64,000 bases of DNA from Paramesorhizobium endophyticum (lineage in GTDB: Bacteria > Pseudomonadota > Alphaproteobacteria > Rhizobiales > Rhizobiaceae), in the NCBI RefSeq assembly GCF_014640615.1, contig NZ_BMHH01000002.1, forward strand, positions 186,001 to 250,000. The letters are read 5' to 3'. Shown piece by piece: positions 2,331 to 19,050 of the stretch (positions are counted from its first letter, which is position 1; each line of letters starts with the position of its first letter). Under the pieces are notes generated by a model. It ran no database searches, was not told where the DNA came from, and saw nothing but the letters and a program-made list of their open reading frames with translations. The translations under genes were made by a program, and so were the position numbers.

Positions 2331-2980
2331 TTATCGCAGTGATTTCGTCTTAGTCCGGCTGCGCAGCACGGAACCGTGAGGCTTTGGGATTTCTCTCAGC
2401 GATCGGCATTCCCGAGCATACGTTATGTAAATGCGCGCGCGGGGAGGTCTGCTATCGCCTCTGTAGGGCCGCGGAAAGAACCCGCCGCTTGATGATTCTA
2501 TATAACTCCCATCCAGCGAGGGTTGCCGCTTCAGGAAGTGACGGCGGCTGACGCATCGGTCGACCCGAACTCCCTCCCAAGATAGGGATTGCGCCTACAG
2601 CCCAGTGCAACAGCCGATATTAACCCGCGGGAAATATTAAAGCGCTTCGCACTCTGTCAATCCTGGAAGGCGCTTGCACCTTCTCTCGCCTGGAGTTAAG
2701 CACATTTTTGGATGCAAACCTGAGGTAGTGATAAATTTTGGCCCTAGCAGGAGCGAGATGCTTCCAGATAAGCCAACATAGGCCTTCCAAAAAGGAGTTG
2801 GAGGAAGGCTTAATTGCTGAAATCATTGAACAATGTCATCTTTGAAAGAAAGTGGCTCCCCGAGACAGACGAATCCGCGAATTACGAATACGATATTCCC
2901 CTCCATTCTACGCCACAACCCGCCGTCAAGATGCGCAAGCGCGATCGGGCGGAGAAGATTAGGCTGGCCGGTGAGCCTAA
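2331..2980. other. non-coding stretch with no recognised gene
   Basis: About 650 bases lie between the two inverted RIME-like repeats. Short open frames exist on both strands, but none has a ribosome binding site, a recognisable motif or alphaproteobacterial codon bias. The base composition looks less GC-rich than the flanking genes. It may be decayed accessory DNA. Confidence 0.5.
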
Positions 2981-3066
2981 AGCATGTCTCCCAAAAGTGG
3001 GAACCGGTTTTGGGGTAAAGACATGCGCAAAAACAAAAACTTAAAGCGTGTTCCATGAATGCGATA
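2981..3066 (-). repeat. RIME-like intergenic mosaic repeat, copy 2 (inverted)
   Basis: This is the reverse-oriented counterpart of the repeat at 2230-2330. The GCATGTC/ACCGGTT palindrome occupies 2982-3026, followed by an A-rich spacer and a degenerate remnant of the second palindrome (AAAGCGTGTT from 3043). The two copies bracket the gene-free stretch 2331-2980. Confidence 0.65.
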
Positions 3067-3119
3067 AAATGCAACACTTAAGCCCACGTTAAGAGCGCGC
3101 GCGATAGCCCTTTGCCTAG

Positions 3120-3257
3120 GAAAAGGGAGAGGTCCGGACAAAGGATCTTACCGATATCGGGGTGCACCGGTGCTACCTTACCCGGATGGTTGACGAGGGC
3201 CTGCTCGTGAAAGTGGGCTACGGTCGGTATCGCGCGGCGGTACATAAAGCGGCTTAA
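3120..3257 (+). pseudogene. winged-helix antitoxin/regulator remnant (AbiEi-like N-terminal domain)
   Basis: A 45-codon frame directly after an in-frame TAG (3117-3119) encodes a peptide with VRTKDLTDIGVHR, YLTRMVDEGLLVKVG and YGRYRAA. This spacing matches the winged helix-turn-helix found at the N-terminus of AbiEi-type antitoxins and related regulators: a recognition helix, then 'L..RMVDEGLL.KVG.GRY'. There is no start codon, no ribosome binding site and no downstream domain, so it is a fragment. The assignment rests on pattern recognition of the motif. Confidence 0.45.
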
Positions 3258-3791: not shown

Positions 3792-3995
3792 ACGCGGACG
3801 CCAGCCACGTTGCATGAATGGGTGAAGAAGACCGAGGTCGACACCGGCAAACGAGCAGGTTTGCCGAGTGATGTGGCCGAGAAGATGAAGGCTCTTGAGC
3901 GGGAGCACCGTGAGCTTCGTCAGGCCAACGAGATTCTGCGCAAGGCGTCCGCCTATTTCGCGATGGCGGAGCTCGACCGCCCCTTCAAACGATGA
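3792..3995 (+). pseudogene. IS3-family transposase OrfA, C-terminal part
   Basis: This is the DNA-binding half of an IS3-type transposase. The frame reads [17 protein letters not shown], then a leucine-zipper-like [20 protein letters not shown], and ends with AELDRPFKR, the standard OrfA terminus of this group. The N-terminal helix-turn-helix is lost. Its stop TGA (3993-3995) overlaps the ATG of orfB in another frame, as expected for programmed frameshifting in IS3 elements. Confidence 0.8.
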
Positions 3996-4412
3996 TCTCG
4001 TTCATCGACGAACACCGAGGCGTGTTCGGGGTCGAGCCGATCTGCAGGCTGCTGCCGATTGCCCCATCCACCTATTACGCGAATGCCGCCGAACGTGAGA
4101 ACGTGAGCCGCCTGTCGGTCCGCGCCCGCAGCGATATCGCCTTGAAGATCGAGATACGTCGTGTCTTTGAACAGAACTTCCGAGTCTATGGCGTTCGCAA
4201 GGGCTGGCGGCAATTAAAGCGGGAAGGCTTCGACGTCGCCCGCTGCACTGTTGCCCGGCTGATGAGGTCGATGAGCCTGCAGGGTATCATTCGCGGAAAG
4301 CCGATCCGCACCACGATCAGCGACAAGGGAGCGCCATGCCCGCTCGACCGGGTGAACCGCCAGTTCAAAGCCCCGGCACCCAACAGGCTGTGGGTTTCGG
4401 ATATCTTCTACA
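3992..4412 (+). pseudogene. IS3-family transposase OrfB, N-terminal part
   Basis: This is the catalytic half of an IS3 transposase. The frame opens with [20 protein letters not shown] and contains the HTH_21-like segment with FRVYGVRKGWRQLKREG and CTVARLMRSM. It reaches the start of the DDE (rve) domain at APNRLWVSD, which holds the first catalytic Asp. A group II intron begins a few codons later (4413), and the second Asp and the Glu are absent. The open frame continues to 4462 only by reading intron sequence. The protein is inactive. Confidence 0.8.
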
Positions 4413-4977
4413 GTGCGCCTCGTCCCGGATGGTCCGGGGTGCATATGACTGGAATGCGTTGAGAAAGGAGGATTTGAGGAATGCCCTGCTCCCTGCTGTG
4501 AGGGGGGCAAGAGCCCAAGCGGCGGTGACCTGTCGTCAACTGGCAGGGTGACGTAGCCCGCAGGTAAAGGGAATTGAGGCGAAGCCGTTACGCCGAGATG
4601 GTTCCCGAGGCTGTAGCACTGGAAGGTTGAGGAACACGAAGGTTAATCCGCATCCGAGGGCGGAAATGTCGCCTTCGCTTACACGGCTTAACAGGCGGAA
4701 TGCTGATGAGGTCGCCGGAGACGTATGTCGGCGGCATCCGAATGTGGGCGGACATGTAGGTCGCCTGCAGGGAGCCATGGGGAGAACACAGCCAGACCAT
4801 GGCAGCGGCATCGACTTGCGGGACGCAAGGGACAAGGACTGCGACCGGCAGCCTCACCAATACGCTGACGTCCAGTATATAACGAGGGAAGGCATGATGG
4901 AATGCCAACGAAGTATTGCTTTGCAAGGGAGTTGACTCTGATGTCCATCATGCTGGCGGAGTTCCCGTAGTAGTCCC
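4413..4977 (+). mobile_element. group II intron, 5' portion (domains I-III), intron-encoded protein missing
   Basis: The sequence starts with GTGCGCC, matching the GUGYG consensus of group II intron 5' ends, exactly where the IS3 orfB reading stops. The following roughly 560 bases have no convincing coding frame. They show features common in bacterial intron ribozyme cores, such as GAGGAACACGAAGGTTAAT and, near the end, CATCATGCTGGCGGAGTTCC and CCGTAGTAGTCC, which usually lead into the reverse transcriptase gene in domain IV. That gene and domains V-VI are absent. At about 4977 the sequence switches to a recombinase gene. Recognition is by motif memory. Confidence 0.7.
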
Positions 4978-5910
4978 CGCGAGACCTACATCGGGAAGCA
5001 CCGCTTCAACGTGTCTAGCTGGCGGAAGGGCGTAGAGAAGCCGGCGGACGAAGTCGTCGAGGTCGAGGTCGAGCCGATCATTACCGTAGAAGAGTTCGAA
5101 GAGGTCCAAGCGATCATGCGCTCGCGCAGCCCGCAACTCCGGGCGCCCCGTTTCGTAAGCGGCCCGACCTTGCTCGGCGGCGTGGCGTTCTGCGCCGATT
5201 GCTGTGGCGCTATGACGCTTCGAACGTCCGGAAAGGGAACTGAATACCGCTACTACACCTGCTGCACGGCTGCGCGGCAGGGCCCGAAGGGCTGCAAGGG
5301 CCGATCCATCCCGATGGACGAGCTGAACGACCTGGTCGTCAACAGCGTCGTTGATCGGCTCCTCAGCCCGCATTTCCTCGAAGAGGCGCTCAGCGCGCTT
5401 CTGAAACGCCGGGATGAGGCGGCGGAACGCGAGACGGGAAGGATCGTCGCGCTCAAGCGGAACGCCTTGGACGCAGAAAAGAAGCTGACGCGTCTCTACG
5501 AGGCCATCGAGGCGGGCTTGGCCGATCTGACGGATTCGAACCTCAAGGGGCGCATCGCGGAACTTAAGAGGATTCGGGATTCGGCCCAGGCGGATGTGGA
5601 GCGGGCAGAAGGTCGGCGAGGGGAGAGAATCGAAATTACCCCACAGGCCCTTCGGACGTTCGCTGCCGCAGCAAAGGACCGGATGCGGGGCGAAGATGGT
5701 TCTTTCCGGCGGAACTACATCCAGCAGCTTATGCAGCGAGCCGAGGTGGGAACCGACGAAATTCGGATAGTGGGATCGAGGGTCCGGCTCCTCCAAACGC
5801 CCGTAGCGTCTGGAAGAAAGCCTGGAGTGGAAACTGCGGCGCACGGCGTTCGCAGTTTCGATCTGAAATGGCTCCCCGGGCCGGATTCGAACCAGCGACC
5901 AACCGGTTAA
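4978..5910 (+). pseudogene. large serine recombinase, C-terminal part, reading into tRNA-Asn
   Basis: This is the C-terminal two thirds of a site-specific serine recombinase. The frame opens in the Recombinase (PF07508-like) domain (ETYIGKHRFN). It continues through the zinc ribbon with FCADCCGAMTL and YYTCCTAARQGPKGC, then a long charged coiled-coil (about 5400-5640) and a C-terminal segment around RIVGSRVRLL. The N-terminal catalytic resolvase domain with its Ser is missing, replaced by group II intron sequence at about 4977. A GTG at 5011 could start translation but no good binding site precedes it. The last 13 codons and the stop TAA (5869-5910) lie on the complement of the 3' half of tRNA-Asn. 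Confidence 0.8.
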
Positions 5911-5943
5911 CAGCCGGTTGCTCTACCGCTGAGCTACCGGGGA
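5869..5943 (-). tRNA. tRNA-Asn (anticodon GTT)
   Basis: A complete 75-base cloverleaf lies on the minus strand. The acceptor stem is TCCCCGG/CCGGGGA with discriminator G and an encoded CCA. The D-arm is AGCTCAGCGGTAGAGC, the anticodon loop CTGTTAA carries GTT, and the T-arm contains GGTTCGAATCC. Its 3' end faces the accessory stretch, the usual side for integrated elements. A recombinase frame runs into it from the other strand. Confidence 0.97.
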
Positions 5944-6599: not shown

Positions 6600-7277
6600 A
6601 TGACCGCCAATTTCCAAGATCTGCGCACCAAAATGGTCGACAACCAGATCCGCACCACGGATGTGACGGATGTCGCGGTTCTCGACGCCTTCCTGAGCGT
6701 GCCGCGCGAGAAATTCGTGCCGGCTGCCTGGCGTGACCTCGCTTACATCGATGAGGACGTCTTGCTGAAGTCTGCGACAGCCGCCGGAGAGCCCGCGCGC
6801 TATCTCATGGAGCCTTCGCCCTTCGCCAAGCTCGTGCAGCTTGCCTCCATCAATCCCCGGGAGCGCGTTCTGGCGATCGGAACCGGAACCGGATACTCGG
6901 CAGCCATCCTGTCTCAACTTGCAGAGGCGGTCGTCGGTCTGGAAAGCGATTCCGATCTGGCTGCCGAAGCCACGGCGAAAGTGGCCGAACTCGGGTTTAA
7001 CAATGTCGTGATCGCAAACGCGCCGCTGCCGGAAGGCGACGCCGCCCGCGCGCCTTATGACGTCATACTTCTTGAGGGAGCCGTGGATTTCGTTCCCGAT
7101 GCGCTCTTCGCCCAACTGGCCAATGGCGGACGTCTCATTGCCGTCGAAGGGCACGGAAACGCTGGAGTCGCAAGGCTTTACGTCAAGGATGACGGCATCG
7201 TCTCCGGGCGCGCGGTTTTCAACCTGGCGGTCAAGCCGCTTCCCGGTTTCGCCCGCACGCCGGAATTCCAATTCTGA
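6600..7277 (+). CDS. protein-L-isoaspartate O-methyltransferase family protein
   Basis: A 225-residue SAM-dependent methyltransferase of the PCMT family, which repairs isoaspartyl residues in damaged proteins. The N-terminus (MVDNQIRTTDVTDVAVLDAF, VPREKFVP) and the SAM-binding loop ERVLAIGTGTGYSAAIL are typical, as is the LEGAVDFVP motif IV region. Its canonical activity is not certain: alphaproteobacteria often carry this divergent form next to tolC. The ATG follows AAAGGAAAG. tolC starts 124 bases downstream on the same strand, and this pairing is common in Hyphomicrobiales. Confidence 0.85.
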   Translation: MTANFQDLRTKMVDNQIRTTDVTDVAVLDAFLSVPREKFVPAAWRDLAYIDEDVLLKSATAAGEPARYLMEPSPFAKLVQLASINPRERVLAIGTGTGYSAAILSQLAEAVVGLESDSDLAAEATAKVAELGFNNVVIANAPLPEGDAARAPYDVILLEGAVDFVPDALFAQLANGGRLIAVEGHGNAGVARLYVKDDGIVSGRAVFNLAVKPLPGFARTPEFQF

Positions 7278-18345: not shown

Positions 18346-19050
18346 CTATGAACCGAACTGCTCGATCACTTCAGCAAGATCGACATGGCCTTTGCAGGAT
18401 CCGTTGCCCGGCTGCATCTCTCCATTCTCCTGCGTGAGCGCATGGATGACGGCGGGGTCGGCCTCGATCCGCGCCCGCAGCGCGTGGAGCTTCGGCCAGC
18501 GTTGCTGGTCGGCGACTTCGTGGAAATCCAGCCAGCGCGCGACGCCAATGAGGATACCGTCTGCAAGCGTGGGACGATCCGCGACGATGAATTTCGTATC
18601 GCCGATCATTTCCTCCAGCCGGTCGTGGCGCTCGATCACCCGCTCGCAGCCCCACTCGCGCAGCATCGCCTGCATGGCGGGGTTGGGCGGGGTCATTTCC
18701 AGCGCAAACCAGAGCGGGTAGAACGCGCCCGTGAAGCCGGTGTTGATGAAAGCCATCAACTGATGCATCCGGTCCGCCTCGCGCGATAGCGGGTCGAAGC
18801 TGATCCGCCGCTCCGTATCACGCGCTTCAAGCCAGGCGGCTATTGCCATGGTCTCGGTCACGACATCGCCCTTGTCGGTAATGAGGGCGGGCGTTTCGAC
18901 GCGCGGATTGATCCGCCTGTAGGATGGCTCGCGCATCTCGCCGAGCATATCGACCCGGCAGAGCCGGTAAGGCTGCCCCAGCCATTCCATTGCTGCGACA
19001 AGTCCCATGGAGCTTCCCGCCGGGAAGCCATATATAAGGATAGGGTCCAT
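18346..19050 (-). CDS. glutathione S-transferase family protein
   Basis: A 234-residue GST-fold protein. The N-terminal thioredoxin-like half has ILIYGFPAGSSMGLVAAMEW and the glutathione-binding NPRVETPALI and VVTETMAIAAWLE. The C-terminal all-helical half ends near residue 210, and the tail contains one Cys (GNGSCKGHVDL). Start MDPILIYG at 19050 has CGGAGAACC upstream; the frame extends to 19149 without support. It is transcribed away from an HxlR regulator, which probably controls it. Confidence 0.88.
   Translation of the reverse strand: MDPILIYGFPAGSSMGLVAAMEWLGQPYRLCRVDMLGEMREPSYRRINPRVETPALITDKGDVVTETMAIAAWLEARDTERRISFDPLSREADRMHQLMAFINTGFTGAFYPLWFALEMTPPNPAMQAMLREWGCERVIERHDRLEEMIGDTKFIVADRPTLADGILIGVARWLDFHEVADQQRWPKLHALRARIEADPAVIHALTQENGEMQPGNGSCKGHVDLAEVIEQFGS

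Follow-up and report, generated by a model that had tools for sequence, protein, structure and literature searches.

In the window, a 64,000-nucleotide stretch of a Paramesorhizobium endophyticum contig, the 3' part of an int gene, which encodes a large serine recombinase, runs into the antisense strand of a tRNA-Asn gene (Table 1). The open frame, 4990-5907, crosses into the tRNA at TGG 5869-5871, the complement of the tRNA's 3' CCA, and reads WLPGPDSNQRPTG before the TAA, with all coordinates of the original prediction for this junction proving correct. The gene is a 5'-truncated pseudogene in which serine recombinase homology begins abruptly at about position 4978, and it has 93%, 88%, and 66% identity to the intact genes of homologous loci L001, L002, and L003, respectively. 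As the same 10 bp, TGGCTCCCCG, are found at both ends of the remnant, at 2853 as well as at the tRNA, about 3 kb of an element are left as an insertion at the tRNA-Asn 3' end.

The window element is decayed and without conjugation genes. A repeat-like sequence (about 2982-3104) has inserted into the tail remnant at its far end, and the 540-bp dispersed repeat, which has a second copy of 96% identity at G000:C46:9357-9900, may, judged by eye, be group II intron-like. A dispersed repeat of the form aagcatgtct...aaaaccggttct-like is also present at 2285-2325, downstream of alaS, with a related form within the tail remnant at about 2982-3030. The left flank of the window is not conserved next to tRNA-Asn in relatives whose site is empty.

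Table 1. Features of the element remnant and its tRNA target, in window coordinates
Feature	Position	Strand	Remarks
tRNA-Asn (GTT)	5869-5943	-	attB target; ARAGORN and Rfam
Large serine recombinase gene, 3' part	4978-5910	+	Zinc-ribbon region onwards; catalytic domain absent
TAA stop	5908-5910	+	From tRNA antisense strand when integrated; overlaps complement of anticodon
attL core region, TGGCTCCCCG	5869-5878	+	Common to attR; boundary and codon phase the same in 55/56 loci
attR core region, TGGCTCCCCG	2853-2862	+	Opposite end of 3-kb element remnant
Native Int C-terminal tail remnant (WLPETDESANYEYDIPLHSTPQPAVKMRKRDRAEKIRLAGEPK ... EKGEVRTKDLTDIGVHRCYLTRMVDEGLLVKVGYGRYRAAVHKAA-stop)	2853-3257	+	Segments 60-76% identical to intact tails
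In-frame GTG	5827-5829	+	14 codons upstream of TGG, preceded by GGA; read from sequence
IS3-family orfA/orfB fragment	3810-4462	+	Inserted in element
ALIL frameshift pseudoknot of IS3-family fragment	3950-4066		
Dispersed repeat, 540 bp	4440-4979	+	Adjoins and truncates recombinase gene

To place this junction among its relatives, a uniform table was generated over all fetched loci, giving 56 distinct homologous loci that adjoin an antisense tRNA. The TGG of the tRNA is in codon phase 0 in 55 of these, and the remaining locus, L138, has a broken gene adjoining tRNA-Trp. The in-phase loci are at tRNA-Arg (19 ccg and 10 acg), tRNA-Asn (six, the window included), and tRNA-Ser (20, with cga, gct, and tga among the targets). 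The L002 and L003 proteins contain Resolvase (PF00239), Recombinase (PF07508), and Zn_ribbon_recom (PF13408) domains, all above curated cut-offs, which, along with site-specific integration through a short core at tRNA-Asn, -Arg, or -Ser, marks the family as large serine recombinases. The original prediction had offered two readings of the junction, a native terminus or a by-product of truncation. As intact L001, L002, L003, and L259 have the same junction, a truncation artifact is ruled out as its source and the native arrangement is borne out. Among phage records there is one close match, MT839362, again with Int joined to tRNA-Asn, and no relative of the fusion query was found in viral contigs.

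The residues that follow the TGG codon vary with the target. In the Arg group, 29 of 29 frames stop within the tRNA, as do five of six in the Asn group, and the replacement tail at tRNA-Arg and most tRNA-Asn loci is 4 to 21 residues long. At 15 of the 20 tRNA-Ser loci, the frame runs through the whole tRNA into the host chromosome, and a stop ahead of the TGG is seen in only 1 of 55 genes (L172). Two plasmid copies at non-tRNA sites have further endings, WRAIC-stop in Enterobacter pKPC_CAV1176, a plasmid that also has trbBCEJLFGI, and WRTTMASKPTAAR-stop in Brevundimonas. Because of the tRNA-Ser read-through and these plasmid ends, the integrated Int end is whatever the target supplies, and the tRNA-borne stop is not the design feature once proposed. 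At L001, a metagenome-assembled genome, the adjacent tRNA-Asn (6880-6955) is divergent (TGGCTCCCGGAGTAG...) and an unusual target, and Int therefore stops after WLPE. An Arg-group element relative with trb genes, floR, and tet(G) (L263, 23880-47834 of NZ_CP011661.1) is present at a non-tRNA site of an Enterobacter hormaechei KPC plasmid; its attR reads WCAAPGEDDNYVYSIAL-stop and its Int end is WRAIC-stop.

An intact relative of the window remnant has both element ends on one contig, L002 and L012, 59 kb apart, with genes for TrbI, CagX/TrbG, a TrbE-like protein, and a relaxase between them; by its gene content, it is a 59-kb integrative conjugative element. Its two sides share TGGCTC, comprising the CCA complement and the first acceptor bases, before they diverge, which puts the crossover in or before TGGCTC. 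Most matches to the window tRNA begin at or before the TGG, indicating that CCA is normally encoded by the tRNA-Asn genes of the family when they are empty. From the position of the crossover it therefore follows that Int writes the end of the tRNA, and that the end of Int is written in turn by the tRNA or the host. L005 alone has an inverted repeat in attP, centered at TGGC/T, above the 95% level of shuffled sequences; elsewhere it is weak. Just past attR in L012 is a strong folded hairpin, which an automated terminator scan did not flag and which is plausibly the displaced tRNA terminator.

The native end of the gene is found at attR, the far end of the element. In the tRNA-Asn group, the attR frame that holds the TGG remains open for up to ~100 codons, encoding a basic linker and then ...KGEVRTKDLTDIGVPRCYLARICEEGLLVKVGYGRHRAA (long-tail set L012, L013, L016, L019, L056-L059, L114, and L115). 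These tails are homologous and open from the core onward, while the host flanks before the TGG differ. Over the first ~12 codons, the three codon positions differ about equally (0.28/0.25/0.31), the pattern that a DNA recognition half-site would give, so conservation there is uninformative about protein. Farther along, the aligned tails differ at codon positions 1/2/3 by 0.27/0.21/0.65 (codons 30 to 60) and 0.26/0.14/0.59 (codon 60 on). From codon 28 to the end, pN/pS is 0.25 in frame but 1.44 and 2.39 when the other two frames are read, and pN is less than pS in 28 of 28 pairs. These substitution patterns argue that the long tail is real protein, a domain under purifying selection. No ATG, GTG, or TTG occurs before codons 60 to 79 of the tail in L012, L058, and L059, and no upstream start codon is common to the integrated long tails. 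A conserved frame without a usable conserved start when integrated would, in the circle, be either the Int C terminus or the product of an internal Int start. The original prediction had named as a counterexample a native stop well before the tRNA; what we find is a native stop beyond the crossover, at attR.

An AlphaFold model of the long tail gives a winged helix, with pLDDT of 92 to 95 over residues 51 to 98. The tail scores 24.7 bits against Pfam AbiEi_4 (PF13338), just under the cut-off of 25, and a PDB fold search finds AbiEi 6y8q with a probability of 0.99 but an E value of 0.1; because of these two values, the AbiEi family name is insecure. The long tail consists of a linker followed by a winged-helix domain similar to that of AbiEi, and it ends directly after the wing, at about 100 amino acids, without the full length of AbiEi. 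On contig G005:C24 (M. ventifaucium), attR-type tails occur at 18778, 35057, and 41333 (L016, L019, and L010), all within 23 kb, which suggests repeated or tandem integration.

In the Arg and Ser groups, the same frame at attR carries WRAAPGEDDNYVYAIAL and then a stop, for a tail of about 17 to 22 amino acids. These attR ends were located by the tail motif; their identity to the tRNA 3' end is too short for recognition, and a scan at the edges of conserved blocks was unsuccessful. We read 49 distinct short tails, 33 of which end at IAL-stop, and tRNA-Ser elements carry versions such as WRAATDSDDHYAYAIALQNDA-stop (L195). Codons 8 to 16 have entropies of 0.27/0.19/0.76 at codon positions 1/2/3, an apparent coding constraint inflated by the collection of these tails through protein similarity. 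The short tail GEDDNYVYAIAL is only partly like the host tmRNA tag ANDNYAEARLAA, and a role as degradation tag is a lead only. Just past the native tail stop, an opposite-sense sequence like a tRNA 3' end (GGTTCGAATCCCGC...) is present in L177 (6160-6195), L178 (5067-5105), and L186 (~905-935), possibly the attachment site of another element. Directly upstream of int in L143 (5235-5983), L144 (5229-5977), and L146 (5274-5980) is a gene pair resembling a toxin-antitoxin module (DUF6516 plus an HTH protein, or Phd/VapC).

Three natural junctions join Int to a tail, all partial or decayed, and no complete, undecayed Int-plus-tail gene was found among the loci examined. In L005, the Int C terminus is joined to a different tail, GVRNFDLK-WLPGLIETANYELPIPLETTPQPTIKIRKRDRERAERTRLAGGPK, which matches window 2841-2981; L005/L010 looks like an element-element junction. 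In L177, on Agrobacterium tumefaciens pAtCG920, Int is joined directly to the short tail, GVPSFVRK-WRAAPGEDDNYVYAIALL-stop, and its Sinorhizobium meliloti relative at tRNA-Arg reads GVPSFVRK-WRTRQDSNL-stop. In L258, Int is again joined directly to the short tail, with one internal stop. Both these junctions and the homologous frame open across the crossover into the attR tails place attP within the integrase gene. We take the sequence to show, with a confidence of roughly 80%, that attP is within the 3' portion of the int coding sequence and that each integration exchanges the Int C terminus.

With this anatomy, integration joins the int-side half of the gene to the tRNA body, such that the tRNA antisense strand or the host DNA beyond it gives the last residues and the stop; the native 3' end of int remains at attR without its own start codon. 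The Arg and Ser groups lose about 17 to 22 amino acids, and the Asn group loses about 100, including the winged-helix domain. A long Int with catalytic domain, zinc ribbon, linker, and tail would be made in the circle and drive attP x attB recombination, whereas in the integrated state only the short Int would be made. For the Asn group, loss of the domain might then make integration effectively one-way, or excision dependent on another factor, and excision would rebuild the Int-tail fusion and end the switched state. The original prediction thus stands in that C terminus and stop depend on the attachment site, but its view that Int is full length only when integrated is reversed, as the integrase would have its own tail only in the excised circle.

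Whether tail loss has a function is less clear than the anatomy; that it acts as a functional switch has, in our estimate, a little under an even chance. Because selection maintains a domain in the Asn group that would be part of a translatable gene in the excised form alone, we judge a state switch there more likely than not; for the other groups, we prefer a by-product that is tolerated. More tentative is the proposal that the serine integrase has its own on/off tail: integration would take the tail off the very enzyme that catalyzed it, and whether the DNA is excised or integrated would then determine integrase direction or stability with no separate factor. The same caution applies to its form in the circle, where Int might be fused to the winged helix (Asn) or end in an SsrA-like short tail (Arg and Ser).

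A neutral exchange, in which attP overlaps a dispensable 3' end of int and the residues after the W codon are immaterial, is a serious though somewhat doubtful alternative. It would account for the arbitrary integrated C termini, with stops in the tRNA, past it, or in plasmid genes, and for the large overlap of the short tail with the attP half-site. The last 21 amino acids of phiC31 Int are nonessential (PMC5737554), and an Int that loses a short tail may thus be unaffected; in the short-tail groups, a by-product is as likely as a switch, and the swap may be neutral. It does not account for the purifying selection on ~70 Asn-group tail codons past the half-site, which lack a start codon when integrated, nor for the rarity of genes like L172 that stop before the TGG.

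It is unlikely that the winged-helix tail is instead a separate small protein, such as a directionality or regulatory factor, made in the circle from an internal GTG of int. An in-frame GTG with GGA upstream occurs in Asn-group sequences, that of the window being a possible start for such a protein, and winged-helix proteins are known as directionality factors (RdfS, PMC11963761). However, the corresponding codon is GTA in those Arg-group sequences that were read, and the GTG is within the Int coding sequence, so the fusion would be made regardless. That the tRNA gives Int a functional C terminus and stop, completing it only upon integration, agrees with the stops inside tRNA-Arg and most tRNA-Asn genes but is already refuted as a general rule by the tRNA-Ser read-through, the plasmid copies at non-tRNA sites, and the conserved tail at attR, and is very improbable as the original prediction framed it. 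Just as improbable is an unrelated antitoxin-like gene fragment at attR by chance, suggested by the AbiEi_4 similarity, since every long arm starts in frame at the core, the tail is short of full AbiEi length, and L005 joins a tail to Int.

The large serine recombinases of phages and integrative conjugative elements (phiC31, Bxb1, and LI) have the same Resolvase, Recombinase, and Zn-ribbon domains and a short core, and, to our knowledge, attP is outside int in those that are well studied. In integration-dependent immunity, an altered C terminus changes the behavior of a repressor protein, the excised form of which ends in a protease degradation tag. In mycobacteriophages BPs and Brujita and their relatives (see PMC4557955), attP is likewise in a coding gene whose C terminus is altered, the protein there being the repressor, whereas here attP is in int and the integrase is altered. 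The "suicidal" SSV-type tyrosine integrases of Archaea (SSV1, pTN3, and pT26-2; PMC8371274) also have attP in the integrase gene, which is split on integration, and the same review terms self-disrupting recombinases exclusively archaeal. In contrast, the present enzyme is a bacterial serine recombinase, with serine recombinase domains only and no tyrosine recombinase Phage_integr_3; it loses only its last 17 to 100 amino acids, keeps its catalytic, recombinase, and zinc-ribbon domains together, and receives a new end from the host tRNA.

A possible parallel is int1 of plasmid pPDL2 of Sphingobium, with attP placed at its 3' end (PMC3516476). In engineered C-terminal fusions of integrases to RDFs (PMC5737554), an extra C-terminal domain on a serine integrase can shift direction preference; those fusions are man-made and permanent, whereas the putative fusion here is natural and would exist only in the excised state, and its tail may or may not be an RDF. 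No description of this arrangement in a serine integrase was found in the literature searched, which was largely open access.

For this recombinase family, annotated C termini are host DNA, as in S. meliloti WQP05272.1, which ends inside tRNA-Arg, and a search for the native tail is a way to locate these elements at both their ends. DNA engineering makes wide use of serine integrases, and how the natural ones keep integration one-way is a central question. If the proposed switch is true, a crossover that severs a conserved domain from the integrase would give bacteria a self-contained control of direction that is encoded in the DNA.
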